Below, piece after piece: positions 22,674 to 56,000 of a stretch of 64,000 nucleotides of DNA. Position 1 is the stretch's first letter. Every line of letters begins with the position of its first letter. The DNA comes from Planctomycetota bacterium. GTDB taxonomy: Bacteria > Planctomycetota > Planctomycetia > Pirellulales > Pirellulaceae. The stretch spans positions 62,001 to 126,000 of the forward strand of contig JAPLNI010000027.1 of the NCBI GenBank assembly GCA_026692865.1, given 5' to 3'. The notes below the pieces were generated by a model. That model saw only the letters and a list, made by a program, of their open reading frames with translations, made no database searches and was not told the origin of the DNA. The position numbers were made by a program, and so were the translations under genes.

Positions 22674-22822
22674 TAATTCTTTGTCCAACTTAAAAACATT
22701 GGTAGCTGAATTCGTAACAATTCAGACGTCGATGAAAGTAAAGGCAAAACCTGATGTTTTCAGATGTCATACGATATCTAATACAAGTACAAACCCCCGA
22801 TTCTCATCTAGACGAAGGATTA
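22674..22822 (+). repeat. MITE-like dispersed repeat, copy B
   Basis: TA flanks are at 22674 and 22821. The left terminus is TAATTCTTTGTCCA and the right terminus TAGACGAAGGATTA. It includes AACTTAAAAACATTGG, a first hairpin (CTGAATT-CGTAAC-AATTCAG, 22706-22725), a decayed second hairpin and AGTACAAACCCC. The right flanking TTA is, on the minus strand, the TAA stop codon of the adjacent TPR-protein gene. The remaining part of 22490-22673 has no recognised feature. Confidence 0.85.
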
Positions 22823-24973
22823 GTCGTTTGGCTGTTTAATCGAGGCTTGAAAGACTTCGAGATTTCTTCGCAACTCTCGCATCGAGGGTTCGGCCGCGAT
22901 CGCTTGCTTCTGGAGCGTGACGGCGTCTTCGATGTTTCCGATGCGGAAGTTGCAGCGTGCGAGAGTGTCAAGATAAGCGGCGTTGTTCGGTGCCAATCGG
23001 CAAGCTAACTCGCTACATTCGAGTGCGTATTCCAAATCATGTCCGGTCGATGCAAGAAGCCAAGCATACGTGTTGAGTGCTATCGAATAGTGACTTTGAT
23101 GAGTAGCTCGCTCGCTATCACTGCTCGTCCGCAAATTTTTCTCCAATCGCGGAAGTGTTTCACGAAAAGCGAGTACCGCCGATGCGAAGGCTTTCTTGGC
23201 TTCATCGCGTCGCTGAGGCATTTTGGCTTGCGGGGCCATGGATTTCTCGACACGGTTAGGAAGTTGCTTGGGATTACTTGCATCAGTCATTTCCATCATC
23301 GAAATAATGATGTCGACATTCTCCGGATCGGAGACTAACGCCGCTTGCAGGTCTTCCCAGGCCGAATCGATTTGATTGGATTGGAGTTTTGATTTTGCAC
23401 GGAAGTACAACCACAGCGATCGCATCCGCTGTGATTGCAGGATCGCGCGTTCCTCGGGCAAAAACACTGTCTGAGCGGGAATGTCGTTGTCGATCTCTCT
23501 CGCAAATTCAGGCTCTGATTCGAAGCGTTCAACCAATGGCTTTAATGCTTTTTCGGCACCATGGTAATCCTCGCCGTCAGACAACATCATGGCGAGCTTG
23601 TACGATACGCTTAGCTCTAGTTTTCGTTCATCCAAGGCAAGTTGCCAAGCCTTTTGAAGTTCTTGTTCGGCCCAGTCGAATTGCATTCGATCTCGTAGGA
23701 AATCGCCATAGTAACAGCGTTCGTAGATCTCTGTTTCATCGGGGGAATCGTTTCGATCAAAAGCGATTTTCGATTCTCGCTCGGCCGCGCTTATATCGTT
23801 GAGTTGCCGAAATGCTTCCGCGCGAAGGTAACGCAGCTTGGTAGCAAAGGGTGAAAAGGATCGACCGATACCGAAGGGCGGGTTACCCATTTGGTTTCCT
23901 TGAGGATTACCTTGAGGATTGCCCGGGAGATTTCCTTTTTGATTAGCCTTGCGTTGGGCAATCTGTTTATCGAGTTCTTCGAAGTACTTATCTGAATGTT
24001 CCGTAACGAACGCGGGGAGCTTTCGATCCAGGGCCCAAAGATAGAGGTCTTCTGACTCTTTCGCTTGCTCGCGAAGGGAATAGGAGATGCGTAACAAGTT
24101 CTTTGCGATCGTCAGGGCCGTTTCCATTTGTCCCTGGTTTACGAGCTGTTCTGCGGTCCATCGCGTCAATTCCGAAACGATCTCACGGCTTGATTCTCCT
24201 GACTTGTTGTCGACGAGCCGAAACTCGTTATCGATAGCAGACTGCCACCAAGTGGAGTCGAGCGGAGTTTTGTCTCGTAGGCTTTCTGCGTACTCTTTTA
24301 ACCAACTGCTTCCGGTTCCCTTAGCCGCTCCGATCGATTGCAAGATGATTGGCCAGGTTTCACTTTGCTTTGCAAGATCCTGAACAGAGTCGCTTGGATC
24401 GGTGAACGATCTCATTGCCGGTTTGATATTATTCAACACCGCCAGCGCAGCCCGCTTGCTCAAGTCAATCGATGTTTCATAACGAGCAATTCGCAGTAGG
24501 GCCGGTATGCCTTGTCGATCCGGTAATGCACTCAGTTTGTCGATGCGTTCCGACCGATGAACAACGTCACCGCTTCCGTATTGCTCCAGAAGTTTTCGAA
24601 CGTTGAGCGGATCTTCGCGGCCGGTCCATCGAATGTAACTGCTTCGTATCATGTACTTGGCGGCAGTTGCGATTTGCGGGTCCGAGTTTAAGATTGCTTG
24701 CTGCAATTGATCCAAAGCAGGAACTCCGATTCGCTCGAGATCCAATTGTGCTTGCCGACGGACGGAGTATTGCTCGCTACCAAGAGCGGAAATGAGCTCC
24801 GCAATCTGTTTCGCAAGCTCGCGGCTGGTCGTGTTTTCGACTTCGGAATCACTGTTTGCTTTACCATCAGTGATAGAAGGATCGCGAACCGGTTCTGCGA
24901 CTGCAAATGGCGAGCTTGCTGCAGTGCATATCAATGCCAGTGCAGCAGCTTCATAGAAAAATAGTCTTCGCAT
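22820..24973 (-). CDS. Exported HEAT/TPR-repeat protein of unknown function
   Basis: This 717-residue protein has a signal peptide (RRLFFYEAAALALICTAA). Residues about 50-200 are HEAT-like helices (ALGSEQYSVRRQAQLDLERI, PALLRIARYETS). The C-terminal half is TPR-like (AEQELQKAWQLALDERKLEL, AWEDLQAALVSDPENVDIII, YLDTLARCNFRIGNIEDAVTL). A glycine-rich insert with GNPQGN repeats lies near residue 340-355. It is probably a periplasmic scaffold. ATG at 24973 has GGAG 8 bases upstream and is preferred to 25009. It follows a cytochrome c lipoprotein and a HEAT-like protein on the same strand. Its TAA stop overlaps the terminus of repeat copy B. Confidence 0.75.
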   Translation of the reverse strand: MRRLFFYEAAALALICTAASSPFAVAEPVRDPSITDGKANSDSEVENTTSRELAKQIAELISALGSEQYSVRRQAQLDLERIGVPALDQLQQAILNSDPQIATAAKYMIRSSYIRWTGREDPLNVRKLLEQYGSGDVVHRSERIDKLSALPDRQGIPALLRIARYETSIDLSKRAALAVLNNIKPAMRSFTDPSDSVQDLAKQSETWPIILQSIGAAKGTGSSWLKEYAESLRDKTPLDSTWWQSAIDNEFRLVDNKSGESSREIVSELTRWTAEQLVNQGQMETALTIAKNLLRISYSLREQAKESEDLYLWALDRKLPAFVTEHSDKYFEELDKQIAQRKANQKGNLPGNPQGNPQGNQMGNPPFGIGRSFSPFATKLRYLRAEAFRQLNDISAAERESKIAFDRNDSPDETEIYERCYYGDFLRDRMQFDWAEQELQKAWQLALDERKLELSVSYKLAMMLSDGEDYHGAEKALKPLVERFESEPEFAREIDNDIPAQTVFLPEERAILQSQRMRSLWLYFRAKSKLQSNQIDSAWEDLQAALVSDPENVDIIISMMEMTDASNPKQLPNRVEKSMAPQAKMPQRRDEAKKAFASAVLAFRETLPRLEKNLRTSSDSERATHQSHYSIALNTYAWLLASTGHDLEYALECSELACRLAPNNAAYLDTLARCNFRIGNIEDAVTLQKQAIAAEPSMRELRRNLEVFQASIKQPND

Positions 24974-25051
24974 CACAAAACTCCGTTGTCGAGATACTTC
25001 ACGCCACAAGTATCATCGTAGCGTATGGAGGTCTGGATTTGGAGCTCGACT

Positions 25052-26485
25052 TTAGCGAATCGTCACGCTAGCGGCCGGTTCTTTCGTACTGGGTTCTTTA
25101 GTGCTGGGCTCGGCAGTCGCTGGCTCGCTGCTCGCTGGTGGGGTTGTTTTCAGCGAGGTGACGAAATTGACGAGGTGCCAAATGTCATCGGTAGTGAGTC
25201 CTGGCTCACCAGGTTTGCTGGCAAGTGCCGCAGCTGGCATCGGACCGCCGGCAATTCCGTAGAGAATACGACGATAAACAGCGATAGGGTCACGCCCGCC
25301 ACGGAAATTGCCTTCGACTAGGTTTCGAGGAAGGATTGGTTGCGGTTTCATTCCTCCACGAGCAAGAAACGGAAGAATTGCGTTCATATCGTCTGGCTTG
25401 ACGTTGATTTGAACGGTCCAGTCCTTGGTCCACTCGTCGTAATCCGGAAGCTGCTTGCCATCTCCCTTGCCCGAATCGCCATGGCACTTTGAACAGGCAG
25501 CCACACTCCCTACAAACAACTCGCGACCTTTCGCGATGGACGCAGATAGTGCATCGGCGTCAATGTCCGCTTCAGGAGTCAACCCAGGAACAGGCACATC
25601 CTCGGGGGCTTCGACTTCTTCTACTTCGTCCTCAGCTTCAATCCACTTGTCAACAATCTCAGTTAGAAGATCTTCGGCAGTGGATGTTTGGTCTTTGAAG
25701 GCCTCTGCTTGTGCTTCTACAGTCGAGCCTCGATAAGAGACGTCATAAATTCGCTCTCGCTTGGTTGGGTCCGAATTGAATGACTCTTCCGGGTCTAAGT
25801 CGGCAGTACCCATCGCAAGTAGTTGCCGCTCGAATTCTCCTCGGATCGATAGATACACAACGTAATCAACGAGTGCATCGATTTGTTTGTCGCTCAGCTT
25901 GTTAAAGAGCGGCATTTGCGAACCAGCCAATCCATGGCGAAGGACATGAGCGATGTCGCTCTTGAGTGGCTTACTGTTTCGGAGTGCTGACTTGTATTTA
26001 AAGACCCCTTTTCGGAAGTCACGTGGATAAGGATTTTGCGACGCGGCGACTGTACCGCGGCCTTGTCCGGTCTCACCGTGACAGGAAGTGCACAATTGTC
26101 GGTAAAGCCCATGATCGCCTGGCTCAATCGATTCGGGTGCGGGTCCCACTGCGGGACGCATCGTGTCCAGCGAAATCAATTCCGCGTAGTCCGAGTCTGC
26201 GAATGCTGGAGGAAGCTTTGGATTGTCAGGAGTACCGAACCAATCGATCAAAAGATCTTTGCTGTCAGACAAAAACTGATCGGTTGGCACATCTTGCTCT
26301 ACTGTTAATCGATGTGCGAACAGATAGTTCGGCTCGAAGGCGAGCTGTTGCGGAGCTTGAGGAGTACATCCAAGACTCGATAAAGCAATCGCGGACACGA
26401 GCAACGCAATCTTGCCGGATAGTGCTTTGTGTGTTGCGTTGCGTTGATTGTGTGCTGCGCTGGGTTGATGGAACGATTGAAACAT
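25052..26485 (-). CDS. Dihaem cytochrome c lipoprotein
   Basis: This 477-residue exported protein has a hydrophobic N-terminus ending in the lipobox IALSSLGC (Cys near residue 40), so it should be lipid-anchored. Two class I cytochrome c domains carry CTSCHGETGQGRG (about 133) and CSKCHGDSGKGDG (about 332). Likely Met ligands follow each: AGSQMPLFNKLSDKQIDALV for the first and GGPMPAAALA for the second. An acidic linker (AEDEVEEVEAPEDVPVPG) separates them. The C-terminus has short EPSTKEPSTKEP repeats. It may pass electrons between a quinol-oxidising complex and a terminal oxidase, but no such complex is encoded here. It lies 78 bp before the TPR gene. Confidence 0.85.
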   Translation of the reverse strand: MFQSFHQPSAAHNQRNATHKALSGKIALLVSAIALSSLGCTPQAPQQLAFEPNYLFAHRLTVEQDVPTDQFLSDSKDLLIDWFGTPDNPKLPPAFADSDYAELISLDTMRPAVGPAPESIEPGDHGLYRQLCTSCHGETGQGRGTVAASQNPYPRDFRKGVFKYKSALRNSKPLKSDIAHVLRHGLAGSQMPLFNKLSDKQIDALVDYVVYLSIRGEFERQLLAMGTADLDPEESFNSDPTKRERIYDVSYRGSTVEAQAEAFKDQTSTAEDLLTEIVDKWIEAEDEVEEVEAPEDVPVPGLTPEADIDADALSASIAKGRELFVGSVAACSKCHGDSGKGDGKQLPDYDEWTKDWTVQINVKPDDMNAILPFLARGGMKPQPILPRNLVEGNFRGGRDPIAVYRRILYGIAGGPMPAAALASKPGEPGLTTDDIWHLVNFVTSLKTTPPASSEPATAEPSTKEPSTKEPAASVTIR

Positions 26486-26521
26486 TGACAGGTTCCAGTT
26501 TAATTGTTGTTGGGAAAGGCT

Positions 26522-26560
26522 TAGTGAAAGACCCAGTGAAAGACCCAGTGAAAGACCCAG
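26522..26560. repeat. 12-bp tandem repeat downstream of the HEAT-like gene
   Basis: The unit AGTGAAAGACCC occurs about three times, directly abutting the stop codon of the gene ending at 26561. It is non-coding on the gene strand. Confidence 0.85.
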
Positions 26561-28432
26561 TTAGGAAGCTTCTGAATCTTCCTCGGACTCGAATACATCA
26601 TGGCCATTAAATGACTTAAGTATTTTACGTCCTTTGTAAAGTGAATAAACCTCTGTTGGACCAAGCGGGCGTGATCTTCCAGAGCTCGGATACCACAGCA
26701 GCTCGACACCATCGGTGACAGCGAACCCGATCGAGTTTTCGAAACGTGACCTAGCTACAACCGCAATTTCACTTAAAAAGAAACCAAGCCAAAGCGGTTC
26801 TACTGAATCGTGACCATGTTGCTCTAGCAAGCCTAGCAATTGGCTGGCGACTTTTCTCTGAGCCGAGTTCCACTGAGGCGCGGGGACTTCGAAAATTTCT
26901 TCGTGTTCTGCATGCCAGCCAGCGAACATCGCATAAATATCATGGACCGGCAGCTCGGCCAAGTCGCACCCAAATGTGTGCGTCAATGGACCCGCGATGC
27001 CGATGTTGCTGATCTCTGCATGTGGCAATCGATACGCGTATCGAAACAAATAACACTGCTGCGGTTCGTCGTAACCAGGCCAAGACAAAGTGCGTACGTC
27101 GAGCAACTCTAGCGAATTGGGCGGCAGTCCAAAATGCTGAGGCTCCGAAAGCCAGAGTGCCAACTGCGACTCGGCAACGGCCAGCGGCATCGTGTGAGCT
27201 TCGTCAATCTCCGATTCAATCCCTAATTCTTCTGCGTATTGCAAAACGCGGAGCCTTGCGATCGGTTCAGCCGCCAAAGCGATCAACGCCTTGCGACCAA
27301 CCTCTTCACCCATCCGCGCCAGCGACGCGGCGGCTTCGGTTTGCAGGCGACGATGCTGCAGCTCTAGTGCTTGATGTAGCTTGCCAATCGAATTGCGAGC
27401 TCCCATCAATCCGACAGCATCACACAATGCGACCGCCAATGCGATCGAGTCGTTGAGTACTCCTTGAATCTCCTCGGTCGTGTTTCCTAGGCTAGTAGGA
27501 TCTTCTTCGGCAAGAGCCAACCTTGAAATAACGCCTCCCAAAATTGCGACAAGTGATTCTTGTCTCGCTTTTGCCGGATGTTCTGTTGTTCGCTGCGAAT
27601 GAACGCAATAGTTCGCTAGATCCAAGACGGGAGCTGCCATCGACGGATGCTGAAGCCCAACTAGCAGCGTTGGAAAAACCGATCCGATGTCCCATTTCCC
27701 ACTTCGCATCAGCGGACTAATGGCGACGGCCATCGGAATCCAACTGGAAGGGGGATTTGATACAAGCAATGTAGAAAGCCGGTTCAAATCGGCTGACTCT
27801 CTTCTCCACGCAATGCACTGCAGCAGCGGTCCCTCGATCGCGACCATTGGCCTTGGAACATTTGGCCCCAGGAGCACGCCATACCACGATTCGTAAATAG
27901 CTCCAGCGACATCAACTAGCGATTTTGCCAAGGATTGATTTTCGGGGTCGTAGTTTGCGATGTGAGTTTGCATCGCTCCGACGAACGACTTCAGAATCGT
28001 TTCTGCTCGAGACGACGAACCGCGGTCGACGCCTGCTTCCATGACTTGCCGAAATTGACCAGCACGGTCGATGGTCGCGTTTTGGGTACTAAGCTCGATT
28101 CCAACTTCGACCAGTCGCTCGCCATCAAACGCATCAAGATCAAAGCTACAAGGGTTGGCTTGTTTGTTTTGCTCCTCGGTGTTGACTGGTTCGTTCGACT
28201 CCAATCCATCTTCGCGGTCGAAAGAGTTGCTTGCTCCATCGACGGCGGTCGCTCGAGAAGCGGCGATCCAAGCGATCCAATCGTCGACGATTTCGCTGGC
28301 TGAAACTCGTTGAGCCGTGCCGGTTTTTGCTGCTACCGGATCTTCCTGTGGTTGAACTGGCCGTCCTGATAGCCCACCGGATAACCCGCCAGCTCGGCTG
28401 TTCGAAGTATTCGATGGTTGGTTGGTCTGCAC
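26561..28432 (-). CDS. HEAT-repeat-like cytoplasmic protein of unknown function
   Basis: This 623-residue protein has no signal peptide or membrane segment. The first 100 residues are low-complexity (GGLSGGLSGRPVQPQ). The middle is alpha-helical with HEAT-like pairs (TLLVGLQHPSMAAPVLDLAN, ALELQHRRLQTEAAASLARM, EVGRKALIALAAEPIARLRV). The C-terminal 200 residues look like a mixed alpha/beta domain (CYLFRYAYRLPHAEISNIGI) and end in EEDSEAS. I do not recognise the family. It is the first gene of a same-strand group with the cytochrome c lipoprotein and TPR protein. It is divergent from the DEAD-box helicase gene. Confidence 0.7.
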   Translation of the reverse strand: MQTNQPSNTSNSRAGGLSGGLSGRPVQPQEDPVAAKTGTAQRVSASEIVDDWIAWIAASRATAVDGASNSFDREDGLESNEPVNTEEQNKQANPCSFDLDAFDGERLVEVGIELSTQNATIDRAGQFRQVMEAGVDRGSSSRAETILKSFVGAMQTHIANYDPENQSLAKSLVDVAGAIYESWYGVLLGPNVPRPMVAIEGPLLQCIAWRRESADLNRLSTLLVSNPPSSWIPMAVAISPLMRSGKWDIGSVFPTLLVGLQHPSMAAPVLDLANYCVHSQRTTEHPAKARQESLVAILGGVISRLALAEEDPTSLGNTTEEIQGVLNDSIALAVALCDAVGLMGARNSIGKLHQALELQHRRLQTEAAASLARMGEEVGRKALIALAAEPIARLRVLQYAEELGIESEIDEAHTMPLAVAESQLALWLSEPQHFGLPPNSLELLDVRTLSWPGYDEPQQCYLFRYAYRLPHAEISNIGIAGPLTHTFGCDLAELPVHDIYAMFAGWHAEHEEIFEVPAPQWNSAQRKVASQLLGLLEQHGHDSVEPLWLGFFLSEIAVVARSRFENSIGFAVTDGVELLWYPSSGRSRPLGPTEVYSLYKGRKILKSFNGHDVFESEEDSEAS

Positions 28433-28554
28433 GTTTTTTCTACTTTTGTTGGCTTTTCTACTTTTGTTGATTCTTATCCTGTCGAATCAGGTGATCTTGA
28501 TTGACCTTATCTTAGTGAACAGATACCGTATTTATAAGTAACAAATTGATAGTT

Positions 28555-28665: not shown

Positions 28666-28686
28666 CCACTAGGCGAACTAGGATTC

Positions 28687-30215: not shown

Positions 30216-30226
30216 ACTCCAAAGCA

Positions 30227-33911: not shown

Positions 33912-34083
33912 TCTTTTTTCAATGCAAATTAGGATTAACGTCAAAAGGCGGTCAAAGGTGGCTTGTGAAGCTCCTCCAACAAATCTGCGTTGAAGTATAA
34001 CTCAAACACGCGTTTTTCCCAGTCCACGCCCACAGCAGCAGTGATTAGCCTCGCAAGAGCCGTCACCGCGGCCCCGATTCAGT

Positions 34084-34228
34084 TTGTCCTTTGTCCAGAT
34101 TGGACTTTGCGTAACTGATTCGTAAGAATTCAGACGTCGGTGGATGTGGAAGCAAGAGAAGCAGACGTAAGATGTCTCGCGACATCTGCTACGATTACGA
34201 ATCCCAGTTTTGATATGGACAAAACGCT
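34084..34228 (+). repeat. MITE-like dispersed repeat, copy C
   Basis: The core inverted termini TTTGTCCA (34090) and TGGACAAA (34216) pair perfectly. The body has CTGATTCGTAAGAATTCAG and GACGTCG, then a second hairpin AGATGTC-TCGC-GACATCT (34170-34187) and CTACGA. It lies between the divergent genes prfB and the pirin gene. The rest of 33912-34268 has no other recognised feature. Confidence 0.85.
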
Positions 34229-34268
34229 CAACATCATTGAGATCAAAAAACGTAAAGCAACATGCCCA

Positions 34269-34967
34269 ATGATTAAGATTCGAAAGTCAAAAGACCGTGG
34301 CTATGCCGATCATGGCTGGCTGAAGACGTATCACACTTTCTCATTTTCGGATTATCAAGACCCGGACCATATGCAGTTTCGATCGCTGCGAGTCATGAAT
34401 GAAGATGTGGTCGCACCTGGTCAGGGATTTGGAACTCATCCACATCGCAATATGGAGATCGTGACCTACGTGCTCGAAGGGGCTCTCGAGCACAAGGACT
34501 CGATGGGGAACGGAGAGATCCTAAGACCTGGCGAGTTTCAGCGGATGACGGCGGGCACAGGTATTACACATAGTGAGTTTAATCCGTCTCAAACCGAACC
34601 GGTTCACCTGTACCAAATTTGGTTGTTCCCGGACCAGCAGGCTCTTGAGCCAAGCTACGAACAAAAGCCATTTCCGGAGTCCGAGCGATTGAACCAGTTC
34701 CGATTAGTTGCTTCCAAAACGGGAGAATTGGGATCGCTTCACATCCATCAAGACGCTCGGATCTATTTAGCAAAAATCGAATGCAACCAATCAATCCAGT
34801 TCGATTTAAGCCCTGGTAGAAGTGCCTGGCTGCAAGTGCTTCGCGGTTCCGTTCATTTGAACGGACTAGCGGCCGATACAGGCGACGGCTTGGCCATCAG
34901 CGATGTGACGACTCTTGCATTAGAATCGACCGAAGACGCTGAAGTCATGCTTTTCGACTTAGCGTAG
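34269..34967 (+). CDS. Pirin family protein (YhhW-like)
   Basis: This is a bicupin of 232 residues, close to E. coli YhhW (231), a quercetin 2,3-dioxygenase. The first cupin holds the metal ligands in GFGTHPHRNMEIVTYVLEG and the matching Glu/His in GTGITHSEFNP. HLYQIWLFPD is the family hinge. The second cupin (RIYLAKIECNQSIQFDL) is degenerate, as in other pirins. Natural substrate is unknown. ATG at 34269 (MIKIRKSKDR) was chosen from family length; longer in-frame starts would run into repeat copy C. Confidence 0.9.
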   Translation: MIKIRKSKDRGYADHGWLKTYHTFSFSDYQDPDHMQFRSLRVMNEDVVAPGQGFGTHPHRNMEIVTYVLEGALEHKDSMGNGEILRPGEFQRMTAGTGITHSEFNPSQTEPVHLYQIWLFPDQQALEPSYEQKPFPESERLNQFRLVASKTGELGSLHIHQDARIYLAKIECNQSIQFDLSPGRSAWLQVLRGSVHLNGLAADTGDGLAISDVTTLALESTEDAEVMLFDLA

Positions 34968-35905: not shown

Positions 35906-36139
35906 ATGCCCAAAATCATGTCAAACGAAATGCAAGTTTTCGCGATAGTCGCTGTTGGATTAGCAGCATTGTTAGGATCTAGTTCGGGCTGCCAAGTTTC
36001 CGTAGCGGGTCAAACACTCCCAAGCCCATATTATCTGGATGACGATATCCAGTACTTCCCAACCGGCCCAGAGAATAAGCTAGCCAACGAAACGGCCGCT
36101 TTGAAGAAGGCTCGAGAAGAATCCAAGTTGCGACGTTAA
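35906..36139 (+). CDS. Small planctomycetal lipoprotein
   Basis: This 77-residue exported lipoprotein has a signal ending in the lipobox LLGSSSGC. The mature part begins CQVSVAGQTLPSPYYLDDDI, then QYFPTGPENKLANE and a basic helix. I believe this short sequence type recurs in planctomycetes; its function is unknown. ATG at 35906 was chosen, and ATG at 35930 would also give a complete signal. Its TAA stop lies at the left end of repeat copy D. Confidence 0.75.
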   Translation: MPKIMSNEMQVFAIVAVGLAALLGSSSGCQVSVAGQTLPSPYYLDDDIQYFPTGPENKLANETAALKKAREESKLRR

Positions 36140-36292
36140 GCTCCGCGACCCGGGGCATCAAAACAGTCGCGGTTTAGGCTCGTAGCAGATGTCTTTAGAC
36201 ATCTGAAGGGACTAGATTTTGTTAGTGATTCCAGCGACGTCGGAATTCTTACGAATTTCACTACCCTTAAGTTTAATCGTGCTAAAGCATTA
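36137..36292 (-). repeat. MITE-like dispersed repeat, copy D (reverse orientation)
   Basis: On the minus strand it begins CTAATGCTTTAGCACG, whose CTAA is the stop codon of the downstream sulfatase gene. It continues through AAACTTAAGGGTAGTG, a first hairpin (ATTCGTAAGAATTCC), GACGTCG, a perfect second hairpin CAGATGTC-TAAA-GACATCTG (36186-36205) and CTACGAGCCTAAACCGCG. The left end is decayed but abuts the TAA of the small lipoprotein gene. It fills the whole space between two convergent genes. Confidence 0.8.
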
Positions 36293-37858
36293 GCTTTTTT
36301 GCTTTTTGTTCGCCTTACGCTTCTCAGCGGGCGGACCATCTTGCACGGGTGTCAGCCCGTCAGTCGGTTGATTCCACAGTCGCCATGGGTCGTTCAGACG
36401 ACGCATCTCTTCCAAAAGCAATCCTTCCATCTCGACGAGCTTCGTTGCGTACTTTGGGTCTGCCGCCAAATTGACTTGATGTGCTTCCGGTGTTGCTCCG
36501 GTTAAAGCGGTCAATGTTGCCTCATGATGTTGGGTGAGGAACTCGTTGGGGTTTTCTTTGACGTTAAACAGTTGCGTTTCGCGGACTGAACCGTTCATGA
36601 CGTCGTACTTGATAAGCTTCCAGTCGCCTTGCTTGATCGATCTCATGCCAGGCTTGGTGCCACCGTTGTAAACGCCGTAAAGAGTGTCACGCACGGTTGT
36701 TTTTTCGCCTTGAAGCACCGGTTTGAAACTGGTGCCTTGATTTGTTTCAGGCGCGGTGATGCTGGCGACATCACAGAGAGTGGACAGCACATCCAGAAGG
36801 TAGATGTTCCCTTCGACCCGCGAGCCTGCCTTGATTCCGGGGCCTCGAACCACGAAAGGGACTCGCCACGTATGTTGATAAAGATTTTGCTTTCCCTGCA
36901 AGCCGTGCCTTCCAATCGCAATCCCATGGTCTGCCGTATAAAAAATGTAAGTGTTATCAAGCTCGCCCATCGCTTCTAACTTCTCTAATACGCGGCCGAC
37001 TTGGATGTCGATGTTTTCGCTACAAGCAAACTCGCGTCCCAGTTCATTGCGGATGGTTGGTTCGTCGCGTCGCTCCCACACGCCACTGACGGCGACTTCA
37101 TCTCGCAAGCCAGGGTGGCCATGATGAAACGGATGAGATGGAAGATAATTGGGAGGTAGCTTGGGTTGCTTTGCGTTCAATGCTGGCGGCTTTGATTGGT
37201 CGGCATGATTGGTCGCGCCGTACTTGTCAAGCAGTTCCGGTGTCCCGTCTCGTTCATCGTGCGGATGCGAGAATCCGAAGTAAATCAAAAACGGCTTTGC
37301 GTCTTTCGTCGACTCGCGATTTTCAAGATAATCCATTACTCGATCGCCGTGCCAAGCACTACCGGTTTCCGCCGTTCCACCACGCTTGGTCGCGTCATGT
37401 CGGACTGTAAAGAGTTTGTTGGCGGCTTCATAGCTGTTGCCTTGTTTACAAGTTCGCATCGTTGCATAACCCGCACGGTTAAAGACGGCGGGTATGGTTT
37501 GCTGTTCCAGATTGGGTGGGCAAAGTCCTTTCTCCATAGCCTTCGGAGCAATCGGTAGATGCCACAATGTGCGACCGCTCATGATCATGTGTCGCGATGG
37601 CGTACAGACCGCACCACTAAAAGAACCCATGTGATACGCCCCATCAAAAACCATCCCCTCGCGAGCTAGTCGATCGATGTTCGGTGTATCCAATGGCGAT
37701 TGTGGGTTGTAACACTTGAGATCAAACGGCGATTGATCATCGACCAGGACGAAAAGAATATTCGGACGCTTGGGCTCCGCTGCAATAGTATGACCAGAGC
37801 AAAGAAATACAAAGGTAATGAGGACAATCAAACGCATCGTAGGAATACCGATCTGCAT
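36290..37858 (-). CDS. Exported sulfatase (formylglycine type)
   Basis: This 522-residue alkaline-phosphatase-superfamily sulfatase has a signal peptide (RLIVLITFVFLCSGHTIAA). Metal-site DD is in NILFVLVDDQSP. The modification motif CTPSR (Cys near 85, SGAVCTPSRHMIMSGR) is converted to formylglycine by a sulfatase-modifying enzyme. The second metal segment is YFTADHG-like (IFYTADHGIAIGRHGLQGK). It likely removes sulfate from algal polysaccharides in the periplasm; the substrate is not predictable. ATG at 37837 (MRLIVL) is an equally good start. It follows the other sulfatase by 39 bp, so the two form an operon. The stop codon lies in repeat copy D. Confidence 0.93.
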   Translation of the reverse strand: MQIGIPTMRLIVLITFVFLCSGHTIAAEPKRPNILFVLVDDQSPFDLKCYNPQSPLDTPNIDRLAREGMVFDGAYHMGSFSGAVCTPSRHMIMSGRTLWHLPIAPKAMEKGLCPPNLEQQTIPAVFNRAGYATMRTCKQGNSYEAANKLFTVRHDATKRGGTAETGSAWHGDRVMDYLENRESTKDAKPFLIYFGFSHPHDERDGTPELLDKYGATNHADQSKPPALNAKQPKLPPNYLPSHPFHHGHPGLRDEVAVSGVWERRDEPTIRNELGREFACSENIDIQVGRVLEKLEAMGELDNTYIFYTADHGIAIGRHGLQGKQNLYQHTWRVPFVVRGPGIKAGSRVEGNIYLLDVLSTLCDVASITAPETNQGTSFKPVLQGEKTTVRDTLYGVYNGGTKPGMRSIKQGDWKLIKYDVMNGSVRETQLFNVKENPNEFLTQHHEATLTALTGATPEAHQVNLAADPKYATKLVEMEGLLLEEMRRLNDPWRLWNQPTDGLTPVQDGPPAEKRKANKKQKS

Positions 37859-37897
37859 GAGCTATGCGACTGCGGGTTTAAAATTTTTGTTACAAGA

Positions 37898-39334
37898 TCA
37901 CTTTTTACCGCGGGCCCAAACAGGTTGCCAGTCGGAAGAATCGCTTCGCGCGGATATCAAGTAGTCGTCGATCTTCGTCGCAATGTCAGGATGTTTTCCT
38001 GCGACATTCGTCTGCTCGGAAATCTCAGTGTGCTGGTCATACAAAGCGATCGAAGCATTGGGGCCGCCCGAGCGAATTCCTTTCCAACGTCCTTGGTACA
38101 AAGCGGCCTGCTTAAAGCCTCCTTCATGAAATTCCCAATAGAGAAACTCGTGCTTGGGCTGTACCTCAGTGGGCTGGCCGAGAAGTGTTGGTGCGAAACT
38201 GATCGAATCGCAGTTGTCAGGTGTCTTTGTCCCAGCCAACTCAGCCGACGTTGCCATCAAGTCTCCAAAGTACGCGACATGGTTTGTCTCGGTTCCACTT
38301 GGTACTCGACCAGGCCACCAAGCGATCATGGGGACTCGGATGCCACCGTCGGTTAAACTGCGTTTGATCCCAGTTAGCGGTCCCGAAGGATTAAACCTCG
38401 CGAGGTTGTGGTTGCTTTCGTTATGCGGCCCGTTATCACTGGTAAACATTACAAGCGTTTTTTCCGCGATGCCTTGTTCTCTCAATTTCTCGAGCATCCT
38501 CCCTACATAACCATCCAAACGCGAGATAAATGCTGCTTGACCTCGATCTGGATCGGGCCAGTCCTTGTCAGTATATGGACCAAAATCAGGCACATCCGCG
38601 CCGTTCTTCAGTTCGCGAGTCCGTTCGTTGTTAGCGTGCGGAATGACCATACTCCAGTACAAGAGGAACGGCTGAGCTTTATTGTTTGTGACAAACTTGA
38701 TCGCTTCTTCCGCAAACAGATCATCAGCAAACTGCACCGCTTTTGTCGCATAACCCGCACCATCACCACCTACCGGAGTCACCACATTCGGCAAAGCAAC
38801 CCGCTCTTCGTTTCGCCAAAGAAAATCAGGAAAGTGATTGTGTGCGTGCCGTTGATTCAAAAAGCCGAAGAACTCATCGAAACCCTGCTTGCGAGGCAGC
38901 CCGCTCTCGGCATCACCGATATCGCCCAGTCCCCATTTGCCTATGAGCGATGTTCGATAGCCAGATTGCTGCAGGACCTTGGCGACCGTCACGTCTTCAG
39001 AACGAAGTGCTTGGGCGCTCGGGTTGGTAGCACCCGCATTACCACGAACTCGAGTATGACCATGATGCTGGCCCGTCATAAGTACACTACGCGACGGAGC
39101 ACAGACAGTTGCCCCCGCATAGAACTGCGTGAATCGCAATCCCTCCTGAGCCATTCGATCCAGGTGCGGCGTAGAGATCACTTTTTGACCATAGCAACCC
39201 AGATCGCCGTATCCCAAATCGTCGGCCATGATCCAAATCACGTTGGGTCTATCCGCTGGTGCTGGGACTGCTGCGAATGAAGCTGTCGCGAACGATGCAA
39301 TACTGAAACATGCCGCGAGATAAAACTTAGTCAT
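37898..39334 (-). CDS. Exported arylsulfatase-like sulfatase
   Basis: This 478-residue sulfatase has a signal peptide (TKFYLAACFSIASFATASFA). Metal site VIWIMADDLGYGDLGCYGQ, formylglycine motif CAPSR (Cys78, ATVCAPSRSVLMTGQHHGHT) and MFTSDNGPHNESNH are all present. This is the arylsulfatase A-like group common in Pirellulaceae. It is the first gene of a two-sulfatase operon; the pairing suggests sequential removal of different sulfate esters (inference). ATG at 39334 has AAGGAC 6 bases upstream and is preferred to 39367. Confidence 0.94.
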   Translation of the reverse strand: MTKFYLAACFSIASFATASFAAVPAPADRPNVIWIMADDLGYGDLGCYGQKVISTPHLDRMAQEGLRFTQFYAGATVCAPSRSVLMTGQHHGHTRVRGNAGATNPSAQALRSEDVTVAKVLQQSGYRTSLIGKWGLGDIGDAESGLPRKQGFDEFFGFLNQRHAHNHFPDFLWRNEERVALPNVVTPVGGDGAGYATKAVQFADDLFAEEAIKFVTNNKAQPFLLYWSMVIPHANNERTRELKNGADVPDFGPYTDKDWPDPDRGQAAFISRLDGYVGRMLEKLREQGIAEKTLVMFTSDNGPHNESNHNLARFNPSGPLTGIKRSLTDGGIRVPMIAWWPGRVPSGTETNHVAYFGDLMATSAELAGTKTPDNCDSISFAPTLLGQPTEVQPKHEFLYWEFHEGGFKQAALYQGRWKGIRSGGPNASIALYDQHTEISEQTNVAGKHPDIATKIDDYLISARSDSSDWQPVWARGKK

Positions 39335-39542
39335 AGTCGTCCTTCTGACTTGGGAGAGAGTCATCATGGTAATGGCCTATGGGTTATATCTTAACTTACC
39401 CTCGCGAGCTCCGCTCGATCTCTTTCGCATCTAGTTCTAAAAAGTACTGCTCAAGCAATCGATCGCCCAAATGTCCCCGCAAAAACGGTCGTTATTGATA
39501 AAGCCAGCCTTAAATCCTCGTTGACAATCCGTCTCTCAATCA

Positions 39543-49034: not shown

Positions 49035-49079
49035 TTCTTGGTTGACAATTAGCTGTGGACGATTCGCAAGGAGCACCTA

Positions 49080-51344
49080 ATGAAAAGCGCTGAAAAGCCC
49101 GTGGAAATTGGTGTAGGTGGGATGACTTGTGCCGCATGCGTACGACGCGTCGAACTTGGGCTTCGCAAAATACCTACCGTTGTTGAAGCCTCGGTCAATC
49201 TCGCAACGGAGCGCGCGTCTGTCCGGTTCGACCATAACCCGGAACACGGTGACATTGAAGCGGTACGAACTGCAATCGCCAAATTGGGCTACGAGCCTGT
49301 CAATTTGACCGTTGTTAGCGCCTCCCACTCACAAGACGATCATGATGTCGAGACATCGCGGCTATGGTGGATGTTCCTCGGTGCCGCGGGCTTCACAGTA
49401 CCGATTGTCATCCTCGCCATGGCACCGATGGTGTCTGGCCGTATCATGGACCTTATGATGCGCTGGTTGTCCATGGAAGAATGGAACTGGATCATGCTGG
49501 GGATGACGATCCCAGTTCAGTTCTGGTTTGGTTGCCGATTTCTTCGCCTGGGAGCAAAGAGCCTTTTTTCTACGTCCCCCGACATGAACTCGCTAATTCT
49601 TCTCGGGACGATGGCAGCTTTCAGCTACAGCACTATCGTCACAATAGTCCCCCAGTGGATTCCCCTGGCGTCTCGACATGTCTACTTCGAAGCGTCAGCC
49701 GTCGTGATCACGCTCATCTTGCTCGGCAAGTTCCTTGAAACGAAGTCGCGGCACCAAGCCTCAGATGCAATGAAGGTGCTGCTGAATTTGGTGCCGAAAA
49801 TGGCGACAGTCATTCGTGATGGTGAAGCGGTGTCGATTCCCGCTGAAGATGTTCTGCTAAATGATCTTGTTGAAGTTCGCCCCGGCTCTGCTATCGCCGT
49901 CGACGGCGTAGTCGTCAGCGGCTCTACCTATATCGATGAGAGTATGGTGACAGGCGAGAGCTTACCTGTGGCCAAAGAAGCCGGAGACGAAGTAGTGGCT
50001 GGAACGATCAATGGCAACGGGAGCATTCAATTTCGAGCCACAGCAATTGGTGCCGATACGACGCTAGCAAAGATCGTAGCGTTTGTTGAATCCTCGCAGG
50101 CCTCGAAGCCTCGCATTCAAGGCATTGCGGATCGAGTCGTTGCCTACTTTGTACCGGTGGTCTTGTTAATCGCCCTATTTACCGCACTTGCATGGCTCTT
50201 CGTGATGCCCGGTGGTTCCACCGATCAAGCACTTATTCATGCCGTCGCTGTTCTGATTATTGCTTGTCCTTGCGCTATGGGGCTGGCCGTTCCGACAAGC
50301 GTGATGGTAGGTACCGGAAAAGCGGCGCAGTACGGCATATTGTTTCGATCGACAGACGCCATTGAATCGTTGAGCCAAGTTGGGTTGATCGCTTTCGACA
50401 AAACAGGCACGCTGACCATTGGTAAACCGCAGTTGTCGCTCTTTCATGTTTTGCCACCGTTCTCAGAAGGAGACCTATTGTCGCAACTGGCTGTCGTCGA
50501 GCAGCGATCTGAGCACCCGCTTGCTACTGCCATCGTGGTGGCCGCAGCTAACGGTAAAAGATCATTACTTACCATCAATAGCTTTAATGCTATTGCTGGC
50601 GCGGGCGTCGAAGCCCAGCTATCCAACGGCGACCGAGTCCTTATCGGCTCGGAAAAAATGATGCGAGAACATCGCATTGATATTACTCCGTTTGATGCAC
50701 AAGTAGCCGATGCCATGTCCGACGGCAATGGCTATTTCTTCGCGGCTGCCAATGGTGCGCTCGCGGCACTCATGGTCGTATCCGATCCTATCAAGCCGTC
50801 AACGACTCAGGCTATTGAGCAACTTAAACAAACCGGCTTTCAAGTGGCACTCATTTCTGGCGACAACGAACGAACAACACTTTCTATTGCAGATCGCTGT
50901 GGGATACCACCAATGATGGTCTATGCGGAGGTGCTTCCCAACGACAAGGCAGATGTTGTGCAAACACTCAAGCATGGAGGCCGACGGGTAGCGTTTGTCG
51001 GTGATGGGCTGAACGATGCTCCTGCTCTAACGATCGCCGATGTTGGCATTGCCATGGGAACCGGGACTGATCTTGCGATCGATAGCGCCGACGTCATCGC
51101 AATGTCAGGGGACATACAGAACATTCCGCGTGCTATCAGTTTGTCGCGGGCTGTGATGTGGAATATCAAGCAGAACTTGGCGTGGGCTTTTGGCTATAAT
51201 ATTGTGCTAATCCCAATTGCCACCGGGCTGCTCAAACCCATGACCGGTCTGACTCTTTCGCCAATCGTAGCAGGAATTGCAATGAGTCTCTCGAGTTTTT
51301 TTGTCGTTAGCAACGCGTTGCGATTGAGGTCATGGCGTTCATGA
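49080..51344 (+). CDS. copA: Copper-exporting P1B-type ATPase
   Basis: This 754-residue inner-membrane Cu(I) exporter has one N-terminal HMA domain (GGMTCAACVRR, C17/C20). Actuator motif MVTGESLP, transmembrane CPC (IIACPCAMGL, about 396), phosphorylation site DKTGTLT (D440), SEHPLA and hinge GDGLNDAPAL are all present. AN...-type C-terminal helices NPIVAG-like (SPIVAGIAMSLSSFFVVSNA) support Cu(I). AAGGAG lies 7 bases before the ATG. It forms an operon with copZ, and the exported copper would be delivered to the periplasm. Confidence 0.97.
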   Translation: MKSAEKPVEIGVGGMTCAACVRRVELGLRKIPTVVEASVNLATERASVRFDHNPEHGDIEAVRTAIAKLGYEPVNLTVVSASHSQDDHDVETSRLWWMFLGAAGFTVPIVILAMAPMVSGRIMDLMMRWLSMEEWNWIMLGMTIPVQFWFGCRFLRLGAKSLFSTSPDMNSLILLGTMAAFSYSTIVTIVPQWIPLASRHVYFEASAVVITLILLGKFLETKSRHQASDAMKVLLNLVPKMATVIRDGEAVSIPAEDVLLNDLVEVRPGSAIAVDGVVVSGSTYIDESMVTGESLPVAKEAGDEVVAGTINGNGSIQFRATAIGADTTLAKIVAFVESSQASKPRIQGIADRVVAYFVPVVLLIALFTALAWLFVMPGGSTDQALIHAVAVLIIACPCAMGLAVPTSVMVGTGKAAQYGILFRSTDAIESLSQVGLIAFDKTGTLTIGKPQLSLFHVLPPFSEGDLLSQLAVVEQRSEHPLATAIVVAAANGKRSLLTINSFNAIAGAGVEAQLSNGDRVLIGSEKMMREHRIDITPFDAQVADAMSDGNGYFFAAANGALAALMVVSDPIKPSTTQAIEQLKQTGFQVALISGDNERTTLSIADRCGIPPMMVYAEVLPNDKADVVQTLKHGGRRVAFVGDGLNDAPALTIADVGIAMGTGTDLAIDSADVIAMSGDIQNIPRAISLSRAVMWNIKQNLAWAFGYNIVLIPIATGLLKPMTGLTLSPIVAGIAMSLSSFFVVSNALRLRSWRS

Positions 51345-51662
51345 GTGGCTCAAGCCAATTGATCCGCCGGCCTTGAAACATTGTGTTTCTCTTTTGGGAA
51401 ATTGTTTGATAATTGCTTCTGAAATCGCAAAATCCCAGAGAGTGCTTCCGAGGCATTCGTTGGTCTACTAAGTTTACGAAATGCGACCGCAGGTATATTG
51501 GAAATGTGACTGTCAGATAATATTTTAAAGCGAATTTGCAGTTCGGTGCTTGAAGCAGCTGGCGGAGCAATATATTTTTGAGCAGTTAGCGAAGTATGCA
51601 CTCGCATCAGAACAATCAGGTGCTGTGGCAAGCACCGAACGGGTTTGCCAGCTTGACCGGTC
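51345..51662. other. Intergenic region between copA and the desaturase gene, no recognised feature
   Basis: These 318 bp between convergent genes contain no convincing ORF, repeat or RNA gene. The terminator of the desaturase gene lies at the right end. Confidence 0.6.
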
Positions 51663-51699
51663 AAATAAAAAGCTCGCTAGTCCAGTGACTCGCGAGCTT
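51663..51699 (-). terminator. Intrinsic terminator of the desaturase gene
   Basis: On the minus strand AAGCTCGC, a mismatch, AGTC, loop ACTG, GACT, mismatch and GCGAGCTT form a 12-bp stem, followed by TTTATTT. It lies 64 bp beyond the desaturase stop. An imperfect 15-bp tandem repeat (ACTGCCCAATAAA, three units, about 51716-51757) lies between. Confidence 0.75.
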
Positions 51700-51762
51700 A
51701 GGTACTTTTAATTTTACTGCCCAATAAATCACTGCCCAATAAACTACTGCTCAGCAAACGGT

Positions 51763-52860
51763 TTAAGCAGCTTGATGGTCTTCTTCTGCGAAGCGTTGCT
51801 TCTTATCAGCGACACTCTTTAGATCAACTACGTTCTTTGCCAAACCGAGGAAACGAAGAATGCAAATGAACTGATATGTCATATCAAATTCCCACCACTT
51901 GTGCCCGTGTTGAGCCAAACGCGGTTTTGCGTGGTGATTGTTGTGCCAGCCTTCGCCATAAGCAATCAAACCAACCCACCACAAGTTTCGGCTTTCATCG
52001 CGAGTTTCATAGTTACGATAACCCCAAATGTGTGAGGCCGAATTGACGAACCATGTTGTGTGCAATAAGGCTACGTGACGCAAGCAGATTGCCCAAAGGA
52101 ACCACGAAGTCGCAAGGTAAAATCCGCCAACTGGATAGAAACTACCAACGATGTAACCAGCGAGTGTGACCAATGCACCGAAAGCAATGTGGATCGGCAA
52201 GAAGTAGTCTTCAAGGAAAACCAAGTACTTGTCTTTGATCAGGTCGGGAACCCATTTCTTCACGTAGGCTGCACGGTCGCCCCCGTCAGTGTTGAATGCA
52301 AGCCAGTAGAGGTGTGACCACCAAGGGCCGTCCTTTGGCGAGTGGGGATCACCCACTTGATCGCTAAACGCATGGTGCTTGCGGTGGTTTGAGCACCAGG
52401 AAATCGGTCCACCTTCTCCTGCCAAGGTTCCGATAGTCGCAAACACGTTCCGCAACCAGCCGGGCATATCCATTCCGGTGTGCGTTAGCAGTCGGTGAAA
52501 GCCTAAGCAAATCCCCAAACTACCTGCCATCCAATGGAACAAAACAGCCAACCCAAGTCCTGACCACGAGAAGTAGAAAGGAGCACCCAAAGCGAGCACG
52601 TGCAGCACGATCAACCAAATCGCAGGGCCCCAATTGATTGTCATCGGATTATCAAGCGGGTGCGGTCGGCGTGCCGGAGATTCAGTCGATTCGTCAACTG
52701 CGGATTCAGCGACCGTGGATTCAGCAATCGAAACAGCCCCGCCCGAAGCAAAACCCTTCGCAGGCGAAACAAATTCTTCGGTCACCGATGCGTAGCCATG
52801 TGGCGTTTCAACTGGTGCGGGAGCGTGGTGATGATGGTGTTTGGGGACAGGGGAAACCAT
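51763..52860 (-). CDS. Fatty acid desaturase (acyl-CoA delta-9 type)
   Basis: This is a 365-residue membrane di-iron desaturase. Histidine boxes are in order: HRLLTH (HxxxxH), HRKHH (HxxHH) and HNNHH (WHNNHHAKPRL). Hydrophobic pairs flank these (AIWLIVLHVLALGAPFYFSW, AFGALVTLAGYIVGSFYPVG). It introduces a double bond into acyl chains for membrane fluidity, using an electron donor not encoded here. The N-terminal 70 residues are low-complexity and begin with a HHHHH run. ATG at 52860 is preceded by GGAG. Confidence 0.92.
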   Translation of the reverse strand: MVSPVPKHHHHHAPAPVETPHGYASVTEEFVSPAKGFASGGAVSIAESTVAESAVDESTESPARRPHPLDNPMTINWGPAIWLIVLHVLALGAPFYFSWSGLGLAVLFHWMAGSLGICLGFHRLLTHTGMDMPGWLRNVFATIGTLAGEGGPISWCSNHRKHHAFSDQVGDPHSPKDGPWWSHLYWLAFNTDGGDRAAYVKKWVPDLIKDKYLVFLEDYFLPIHIAFGALVTLAGYIVGSFYPVGGFYLATSWFLWAICLRHVALLHTTWFVNSASHIWGYRNYETRDESRNLWWVGLIAYGEGWHNNHHAKPRLAQHGHKWWEFDMTYQFICILRFLGLAKNVVDLKSVADKKQRFAEEDHQAA

Positions 52861-52953
52861 AGGGAAGAAACTCCGGTTCTTCGGGTAAAGGAACTAAAAC
52901 TCACGGGTGTAAGTATTAACGCCTTCCGCCCGAGAAGAATGTCCCAATCTGGT

Positions 52954-53073
52954 TCATCATTTGTCAAAGATACGTAAAAGTAGCTGAAAGCCTCTGATTA
53001 AATGTTCTTGTGTACACTGCCTTGTCGCATTTCAGTTGTTCTCATCGTGATTTTTCATTTAGACGAAGGGCTA
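52954..53073 (+). repeat. MITE-like dispersed repeat, copy G (decayed)
   Basis: The left terminus core is TTTGTCAA (52960) and the right is TAGACGAAGGGCTAG (53060-53074). GTAGCTGAA and the right-hand GATTTTTCAT remain, but the hairpins are decayed. The right flanking CTAG is the TAG stop codon of the minus-strand PVC haem protein gene. Confidence 0.65.
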
Positions 53074-56000
53074 GGGCAATTCAACTTGGCTCGGATGTCG
53101 CAGGTACCCGAAGAGGTCGCGAATCTGAGCGGCACTAAGTTGCTCGAGCTGCCCTTCTGGCATTGGAGATTGGCTCGTCTGCTTGATTTCCTGAATCTCT
53201 GCCCGCTCAATGACAAGCAATTCACTTTGCGTTTGCAGCGAAAGTGTTCGATCATTTTTCGACACAACAACACCATTGAGAACTCTTCCGTCCTCCATCA
53301 TTAGTACACTTACACGATAGTCGGCTTGAACAACGGCGCTGGGGTCCACGATGTTTTCAACCAAGTAATCGAGATTGGATCGATTCGAACCGGTCAGGTC
53401 TGGACCAATCTTTTGACCCTCACCGTACATCCGGTGACATTTTCCACATAGCTCCGCAAAGACCGCGCGGCCCTTGCTCAAATTGACTGATTGAGGGGCT
53501 TGTTCAGCCAGCAATTTATGAAGCTTTTCCATCGCAACTCGCCGATCCTCAGGAGACTCGCGCGTCTCTCCCCAGGCATCGGCAAGCCGCCGGTTAAGCT
53601 CTTCATCACCGAACGATCGAATTTGACGAGCATCAAAAGCGGAAAGGCTACTTTTCGCGATCGTCCCTTTCGCAATCGCGTTAACCAGTTCCGATGCAAA
53701 AGACTTACGAGTCACCATTGCAGCGATAATCTCAGGCCGATCGGTACCACGAAATCGACCGAAGCTCTTGATGACCAGTTTTGCATTCTCTGCGTTATCG
53801 TCCAGAGCAAGTCCTTTCGCGGCGATGGTGTTAATACGTTGATCGCCTATCAGCTTCGTACAGATTTCATTGAGATCCTCGGGCCGCTGATTCAGCAGAG
53901 AAAGGAAAGCCGATCTCCGAAGCCCTATCTCTGCCTTCTCGTCGAGTACTAGCTCACGGATTTGCGTCATGGCTCGTCCATCGCCAAAGACGACCCCAAG
54001 CTCGCGAACCATCGGGGATAGAGTCACTTCGGTATCTTTCACCGAGGCTGAAAACGCTTTCCATGTTTTTGGCTCGGGAGCCTTCGCCCAACCTTTCATT
54101 GCGTCGCTAATTCCCGAAATTATCGTAGCCCGCAAATTGGAATCTTTGCTATGGGTTATTGCGTTGATCAGCGACTCCAATGACGTACGATCCTTGTGCA
54201 TGGTATCGGCAAGTCGTCTTGCAATCAGTCGTTGCACCAAAGGCCACTTACTCTGGATTGCAACGTCAATAAGACTCGACGGTAATTCTTCCGCAACAGG
54301 CATCAATCCATACCAAACAAGAAGAGGAAGATTATGGTCGTTGGCATCCTCTTCGCGTGACATCAATGCCTGTGCGAGTTTCGCTCGATCCTTGACCGGA
54401 AGTCGTTGAATGTTCGAAGCGAGAGCAAGCCGCACCAATCCGGATGGGTCGGCTTTCGCCAAAGAAACATGACTCGCTAACAATTCTGCATCGACAGCCA
54501 TTGCCACGGGATGAGCTCTAAAAACGTCATCAATCGACATCGAATCAAGGCTTGCCCGTATAGACCAAGCTCGCACGTTTTCGCTGGGACTAGCAAGCCA
54601 GCTTAAGGCGACACTTTGATTGACTTGACCACAGGCGAGTAAAGTCATCGCCGTTCGCACAGCAGTCAGTTGGTTCGTTTCGGAAGTCATAGCGAGCAAG
54701 TCCTTCATCGCCATGGATAAGTCTGCATCCTGTGCCCCGGGCTTTGCGAGTCCTGCTACCGATCGTTGGGCGAGTATCAATCTCGCTTGTCGAATGGCCC
54801 ATTCGTTATCGGTACGATGAAGGCGAACAAGCTCCTGATTAGATAGAGAATCCACGCTTGCAATCTTGCTGGTGGAAAGATGATCTTGATGCGTGATCTT
54901 AAAAATCCGCCCACTAGTTCGATGCACTCCATTGCGTTCATGACATTCTCCGGTGTCGCTCCAATCGATCAACATTACACCGCCGTCTGGGCCAACCGAT
55001 AGATCCATGCCTCGATAGAACGGATCTGGAACAATACAAAAATCTGGATCGTGAGAGGCTAAGTAACCGCTACCCTTGCGTGAGACAGTCTCTTGGTTGA
55101 GTCTTCGGCCATGGAAGTTGGAGGTAAAGAACTTCCCGCGGTACTCTTTTGGCCAGCCTTCACCGATGTAGAACATCGCGCCGCAATGAGCATGTCCACC
55201 GCCCAGGGAGTTGGCTGCACCGTCACGAGATTGCATCCAGCTTTTGCCCGTATCAAAGTGATAGTGATCCGCGTGTTGATCGATGGTTTGATATGTTTGC
55301 GGATTGGGATCAAGATTGAACGGTCGGTTGTAGTGCGCGCCGGGTATCGCATGCCAGAAGTGACCATTGACTGTATTAATGAAGAACAAATCACCAAACT
55401 CGTTCCAGTCGTGTCCCCAAGGATTCGTTGTGCCTGCGCAGAGAACCTCAACCGTTTTGCGAATTGGATGGTATCGCCAGATTCCTCCTTCAAGCGCGAA
55501 GCGATCTTTGTCGAGTGTTCCTGGTCTTCCAATAAGCCCCGGACATGAAGCACCACAGCGTCCATATAACCAACCATCAGGCCCAAACCGAAGCCCGTTT
55601 GCGTAGTTATGGTAGTTGGCTTCCGCAACAGTGAAACCATCCAAAACGACCTGAGCAGGACCATCCGGCACGAGATCATGATTCGCATCGGGAATGAAGA
55701 GAACTTGCGGAGGACACATCAACCAGACGCCACCATGCCCGACCTCGACACTCGTCAGCATCTGAACCTGATCGGTGAAGACAGTTCGCTTGTCAGAGAC
55801 ACCGTCCCCATCTAAATCCTCTAGCACCAACACACGATCACGAAACGAGAGATCAAACCTTTGTTGGGCTTCTGCATACGTAAAGTTTTCCGCAACCCAG
55901 AAACGTCCGCCAGCATCCCAAGCCATCGCAATCGGATTCTGAACTTGCGGTTCAGAAGCAAACAGAGTCGCCTTAAAACCCTTTGGCAACTCCATTTTTA

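Follow-up and report, generated by a model that had tools for sequence, protein, structure and literature searches.

The window analyzed here, a 64,000-nt stretch of a contig from a Planctomycetota bacterium of the family Pirellulaceae, carries several copies of a short repeat among its protein-coding genes. An earlier note on this DNA claimed that in three copies, B, D, and G, the outermost bases of the repeat are the in-frame stop codon of the neighboring gene, and that copy D also abuts the stop codon of a small lipoprotein gene on its other side. This observation is partly confirmed and is real in large part. A covariance model of the repeat, R1, built from 20 copies, finds six copies in the window, B and D included and G not. 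In copies B and D the stops of the named genes consist exactly of the TA of the terminal CTAR and the first base of the element.

Copy B (22673–22823, plus strand; R1 score 141 bits, E 2.9e-29) is a 151-bp element with 83% identity to the typed consensus. The TPR gene beside it (22820–25009, minus strand) ends with a TAA at 22820–22822, which is TTA on the forward strand; the gene call places the stop there as well. Copy B contains two hairpins on the plus strand, hairpin 1 at 22706–22725 (CTGAATTC-GTAA-CAATTCAG, model positions 34–53) and hairpin 2 at 22761–22780 (CAGATGTC-ATAC-GATATCTA, model positions 89–108). Copy D (36150–36293, minus strand; 73.7 bits, E 2.8e-14) has an intact end on the side of the sulfatase gene (36290–37858, minus strand, with the Pfam domains Sulfatase and SGSH_C), whose TAA is located at 36290–36292. 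The consensus element begins with G; copies B and D give TAA rather than TAG because the first element base is A in both. The opposite end of copy D is decayed, with 5 of 15 terminal bases matching, and the TAA of the lipoprotein gene (36137–36139, plus strand) lies about 7 nt from that end as extrapolated, so that the two are close but do not coincide. In the congener G001, the ortholog of the TPR gene stops four codons earlier and that of the sulfatase gene has a diverged tail, while the lipoprotein ortholog has TAG at the identical codon and no element after it (codons compared by eye).

What was called copy G is a remnant of the right terminus only (53051–53074, plus strand), which agrees with the consensus end at 20 of 24 positions. 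No match as good was found in one shuffle of 1.03 Mb, on one strand, and neither R1 (E<=5) nor an nhmmer search (E<=0.01) recognized the remnant. The TAG claimed for it is present at 53071–53073 (CTA on the forward strand), as the stop of a minus-strand gene (53071–56229) with DUF7133 and cytochrome c domains, and G001 has the identical stop codon without a terminus, as judged by eye. The presumed left part of copy G is mostly non-element sequence, which lies upstream of a fatty-acid-desaturase gene (51763–52860, minus strand) and is conserved in G001. About 130 nt upstream of that gene (52860–52990) are nearly unchanged in G001 and form a candidate leader or promoter region.

The remaining four copies are all on the plus strand. 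Copy A (10076–10225; 139.4 bits) has CTAG at both termini and does not lie at a stop codon. A diverged copy is found at 19129–19275 (38.8 bits, E 1.5e-6), a further one at 34083–34230 (72.5 bits), common to G001 at the orthologous site, and one with an internal deletion at 61252–61364 (79.7 bits), for which the G001 site is empty and bears a 2-bp signature. A called gene at 34140–34967 starts within the copy at 34083–34230, and its start has probably been called too early.

Synteny with G001 breaks at 22655–22842 and 36138–36366 of the window, that is, at copies B and D, which are oppositely oriented. One G001 contig (C437) carries the window blocks 19224–22655 and 36366–39373, and the segment 22842–36138 is found on other contigs. 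This arrangement suggests rearrangement breakpoints at the repeats. The G001 counterpart of copy B (L350 3406–3543, C356) stands beside the TPR gene with a different neighbor on its far side, and the TAA of that neighbor coincides with the other terminus of the copy.

An IS630-type element and its target site

The genome of the window (G000) was searched in two rounds. In the first, the best 40 of 195 candidates were scored and 43 matches were listed, the last three short and secondary; in the covariance-model search, the best 150 of 1665 candidates were scored and 149 were listed at E<=0.01. The 108 regions around matches, together with the window, merged into 106 regions of 1,025,908 bases with 161 distinct copies, a sample that was drawn round the 149 top model matches and therefore under-represents weaker copies. 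The G001 assembly is fragmented and 87% complete, and its sample holds 93 copies, 92 of them usable. A DNA search of 40 genomes, G000 included, gave matches only in G000 and G001, and Rfam gave none in the window at the gathering score.

The relatives carry IS630-family elements with DDE_3-type transposases. Comparison of copies within genomes defined the right ends of these elements in G007, G029, G030, and G052 and the left ends in G029 and G030. All of them start with CTAGTGCT, and the bases that follow resemble those at the ends of the repeat; CTAGTGCTTTGTCAGGCTTTGATTTTGGGGTAG (G007) and CTAGTGCTTCGTCAGG (G029) are examples that match its two ends. The terminal inverted repeats agree with the ends of the IS630 elements of these relatives; in the comparison with G007, for instance, 13 of the initial 15 bases match. 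Among 159 good ends of the repeat, the terminal context is C (72%), T (82%), A (80%), followed by G (71%) as the first base of the element, and nothing is conserved outside it; because CTAG is part of the 15-base match used to select these ends, the percentages are upper estimates. According to the accessible part of PMC2170065, IS630 and ISY100 insert almost exclusively at TA and duplicate it, and a title in its reference list names a preference of IS630 for the TA in 5'-CTAG-3'; unlike the repeat, both are autonomous. Two DDE_3 matches are present in G000. The one at C56 is a 231-aa frame whose N-terminal part is missing by our reading, followed by ACAAAGCGCTAG, a terminus-like end, and the one at C22 is a fragment with internal stops. 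No intact transposase with the exact ends of the repeat was found in G000.

The target duplication can be followed at sites that are empty in the congener. For 32 copies of G000, both flanks could be placed next to each other in the G001 sample. The gap between them is element-sized (100–210) for 17 copies, with a detected element in 16; it is −2, −2, and −1 for three copies and has other sizes for 12. The corrected gap is −2, leaving one TA, at C30 and at the window copy 61252–61364, and −1 at C26. Thus, two empty G001 sites, each holding a single TA, bear the signature of a 2-bp TA duplication. The flanking TA copies in G000 are partly mutated (AA and TA at C30, GA and GA at 61252–61364), so the evidence for the duplication is the length together with the TA present in the unoccupied site. 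In the case of C30, G001 has CCC TAG at the empty position, where the TAG is the stop codon of the orthologous gene; insertion into a pre-existing stop codon is therefore seen directly. A 4-bp YTAR duplication of the IS5 type was considered and dropped, as the ends match IS630 and the empty sites show 2 bp.

Stop codons at the ends of the element

Genes were called by codon usage in this analysis (749 genes). In the 1.03 Mb of G000, a terminus coincides exactly with a facing in-frame stop codon in 36 of the 161 copies, or 37 ends, as one copy coincides at both; every other listed distance from −60 to 120 holds at most 6 ends. Random placement predicts 9.2 coinciding copies when any non-coding or stop TA is the target, 13.0 for YTAR, and 9.9 for CTAG. 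The genome-wide comparison of terminus-to-stop distances with random sites, which the earlier note had proposed, accordingly gives an enrichment, contrary to the outcome that the note had named as its refutation; the enrichment is attributable to the supply of target sites, as set out below. G001 replicates the coincidence with 18 of 92 copies (21 ends). The coinciding stops are TAG at 30 of 37 ends and TAA at 7, compared with 204 TAG and 264 TAA in genes without an element at their end, an excess that is expected if the first G of the element completes the codon. None of the 161 copies lies entirely within a called gene, although a broken gene would appear as two called pieces. Convergent genes flank the element in 57 of 155 cases, compared with a convergent arrangement in 133 of 643 gene pairs. 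One copy (L135 3504 and 3648; G000 C50:115055–115199) ends on each side in the stop of a gene, the two genes being convergent; it looks as though their stops had overlapped in one CTAG that the element then split.

Insertions are concentrated at gene ends as a whole. Per available TA, their density within 0–30 nt of the facing stop exceeds that at 31–200 nt by a factor of 4.45 in G000 (p=1.9e-16) and of 3.54 in G001 (p=1.7e-7); in the subset of good ends the factors are 4.33 and 2.23 (p=0.039), respectively. Together with the C-TA-G context and the 2-bp TA empty sites, this bears out the suggestion of an insertion preference for CTAG/TTAG near gene ends.

We propose that the repeat belongs to the non-autonomous transposable elements (MITEs) of the IS630/Tc1-mariner type and that the stops it meets repair themselves through TA-specific insertion, without targeting; we give this explanation as a whole a probability of about 0.88. 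The MITE would insert at TA, mostly within C-TA-G, and duplicate the TA. Since TAA and TAG stops contain TA and the element starts with G on both sides, each junction would read TA followed by G, so that an in-frame TAG is formed anew and the protein stays as it was. Insertions within genes would be removed by selection, and many of the survivors would lie exactly in stops, since no other position in the tolerated zone past genes comes close to them in TA density. The explanation needs the extra density at 3' ends, because chance over plain non-coding TA predicts only the 9.2 coincidences given above. Selection against insertions at other sites would be the simplest cause of that density; from the data at hand, we infer both such purifying selection and a former transposase that moved the repeat.

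The sharp peak of 37 ends at distance zero, and the drop in density past 30 nt, could also be produced by a transposase that specifically targets stop codons or terminators. If stops were targeted, they should be preferred to the sites next to them. In G000, the per-TA rate at the stop relative to 3–30 nt downstream is 0.91 for all ends and 1.46 for good ends; the corresponding values for G001 are 1.29 and 1.01. In this comparison the observed 3–30 bin also takes ends scored at distances of 1–2, which are slips of end alignment. With TA, YTAR, or CTAG as the target, the ratios in the two genomes range from 0.61 to 1.48, with a smallest one-sided p of 0.097. As the rate at stops is not detectably above that of the next 30 nt, targeting of stop codons is unneeded and was dropped (all one-sided p>0.09); the stop-codon excess vanishes per available TA and is explained by target-site supply. 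Targeting of terminators in the 0–30 nt zone would be an alternative cause of the density. Taken jointly, targeting of stops or terminators is, in our judgment, improbable. Still harder to accept, and very improbable, is an account in which the element inserts inside genes near their ends, truncates them, and supplies a new stop. The TA followed by G does give a stop when a tyrosine codon is struck, and the TPR and sulfatase genes of the window end differently in G001. However, 6128 of 24386 coding TA are in phase 0, and from this phase usage truncation predicts about three read-through ends per exact end, whereas among the good ends exact coincidences outnumber genes that read into the element by 28 to 2 in G000 and by 6 to 1 in G001. 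Over all ends, decayed ones included, 37 are exact and 35 have a gene ending 1–60 nt inside the extrapolated element, which is in line with truncation, but in these the phase is not judgeable. Furthermore, for 14 distinct coinciding genes the sample of the other genome contains an ortholog, and 11 of the 14 end at the identical codon. The three that do not are the TPR gene at copy B, the sulfatase gene at copy D, and the left gene of G001 L335. In four of the 14 comparisons no element was detected within 400 nt of the ortholog; three of these orthologs keep the stop, and the one at D differs. Orthologs and coding phase thus disfavor truncation in general; at the window's copies B and D, the genes may have run on to the stop of the element, since the G001 stops differ.

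The hairpin core

The core of the element, at model positions 30–112, consists of GTAGC, a hairpin, a spacer, a second hairpin, and GCTAC. The tagged-hairpin pattern, with GTAG at the foot of a palindrome, has 221 matches at <=1 mismatch in G000 and none in a reversed control. All 97 exact GTAA-loop matches in the G000 regions lie inside elements or within 60 nt of them. Among the 100 exact matches listed in G000, 14 fall outside the 149 model matches, and the two of these that were examined (L390 and L394) look like dimers without a recognizable IS630 end.

The stems are the best-conserved part of the element. Over 246 copies, they are conserved at 89–92%, the spacer and arms at 63–76%, and the termini at 79–81%. 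At 21 insertions common to G000 and G001, the two stems differ at 0.144 and 0.162 of sites, compared with 0.354 for the spacer in the middle, 0.361 for the arms, and 0.283 for the ends where aligned; the pairs were matched by hand and required a detected element in both genomes, and one of them (C51 3504/L340, with 24 of 35 middle sites different) may be two separate insertions. By this comparison of aligned copies, the hairpin stems are constrained after insertion, with a divergence below half that of the remaining parts of the element, and this slower divergence suggests a retained function.

The earlier note's other suggestion was that the element is selected as a 3'-end structure that protects or terminates transcripts. 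In its fuller form, the hairpins would be a bidirectional mRNA 3'-end structure, a stabilizer or terminator, and selection would place the element end at the stop. The constraint on the stems and the density at 3' ends are both consistent with such a role. Pairing is, moreover, a little weaker in copies between divergent genes (0.871 vs 0.911, permutation p=0.006), and compensatory double changes over the 246 copies exceed shuffled expectation in hairpin 1 (70 vs 19) and hairpin 2 (22 vs 6.4), with 8 vs 7.6 in a control. In a listing of other genomes of the family that allowed one mismatch anywhere, most loops are GTGA or GCAA and so conform to GNRA, although GTTA (G021) and GTCA (G077) also appear. 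Against this role, many of the compensatory changes mark a single subfamily (pair 2 of hairpin 1), for which reason we give the covariation little weight, and the 20 best copies show no covariation excess. Counts of G-U and A-C pairs on the transcribed strand of tandem copies are flat (60 vs 62). Incoming proximal hairpins have 62 vs 35 in convergent copies, an imbalance that is not context-specific because divergent copies also have 42 vs 29. Stem identity is nearly equal across contexts (0.892–0.912), and the exact coincidence with stops, which target supply explains, is left unexplained by a 3'-end role. Such a role is possible but, on this balance, doubtful; selection as a 3'-end structure is weakly supported, and the interpretation in the earlier note as a whole is partly supported.

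Tagged hairpins were also sought across the family, and matches were found in 24 of 149 genomes, G000 and G001 included. Many of the 24 have one to four matches, near the control level of 0–1, and six (G126, G021, G040, G168, G091, and G088) have 30 to 197 each. Thirty loci from these six genomes (L400–L429) were sampled through a GNRA query and are for this reason unusable as GNRA evidence; their loops vary (GTGA, GCAA, GCGA, GTTA), and 13 have an inverted partner under a loose pattern. An IS630-like terminus (>=10/15) lies near 3 of 32 hairpins from other genera, about the control rate of 0.105, compared with 49 of 105 in the G000 regions. One hairpin in G040 (L415) has a 12/15 terminus at exactly the spacing of this element, 29 nt before the hairpin, and the G126 locus L405 has CTAGCGCTTCGTCC 34 nt before another GTAGC. 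IS630-framed copies may therefore exist in other genera, with one clear case in G040 and one likely case in G126.

Relation to known repeats and biological meaning

Repeats that supply stop codons are known in kind, and the coincidence described here is known biology rather than a new mechanism. In the portion of Di Nocera et al. (2013, PMC3733652) available to us, GTAG REP termini often give a TAG stop to flanking ORFs, in two species most convergent REPs are located <20 bp from both ORF ends, and many GTAG-15 dimers of A. variabilis sit in long palindromes. The present element resembles such REPs and REP dimers in its GTAG beside a palindrome, its inverted pairs with a spacer, and its location between convergent or tandem genes near ORF 3' ends. 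Unlike in GTAG REPs as that source describes them, it is the IS630-like terminus (TA followed by G), rather than the GTAG tag, that supplies the TAG; IS630-type inverted repeats, with a 2-bp TA signature, enclose the dimer; and the hairpin is found near none of the tyrosine-transposase loci: at <=4 mismatches, it lies within 1.5 kb of 0 of the 5 PF01797 loci in G000. As no RAYT association was found there, we call the core REP-like and not a RAYT-borne REP.

RUP of Streptococcus pneumoniae, as far as the accessible text of PMC2229807 and PMC3049150 goes, is likewise short, non-coding, and present in high copy number, with IS630-like terminal inverted repeats and TA targets, and it is over-represented between convergent genes. 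It differs in its length of 107 bp, and a GTAG dimer core is not described in those portions of its accounts. BOX of the same species encodes the stop codon of 36 CDSs, without strong evidence of truncation, in the sections seen of Croucher et al. (2011, PMC3049150); unlike the present element, it is modular, up to over 500 bp long, and has other ends and another family. No published description of the 151-bp element was found in the literature searched, which was covered in part; judged by this coverage, the dimer that IS630 ends frame in this genus is a new variant.

As to its origin, we tentatively consider, at somewhat less than even odds, that a pair of IS630 ends captured a REP-type dimer, a structure normally tied to RAYT tyrosine transposases, that a DDE transposase then spread it, and that after insertion purifying selection in the host preserves the hairpins as the transposon ends decay. 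If this were true, a parasite that lands in stop codons would seed gene-end hairpins throughout the genome. The per-site null also has a wider use: a striking coincidence with stop codons needs no targeting, and the same control would serve anyone who infers function from such coincidences. Finally, the slower decay of the hairpins at common insertions makes the usefulness of REP-like hairpins to the host testable in a genus that provides natural empty sites.
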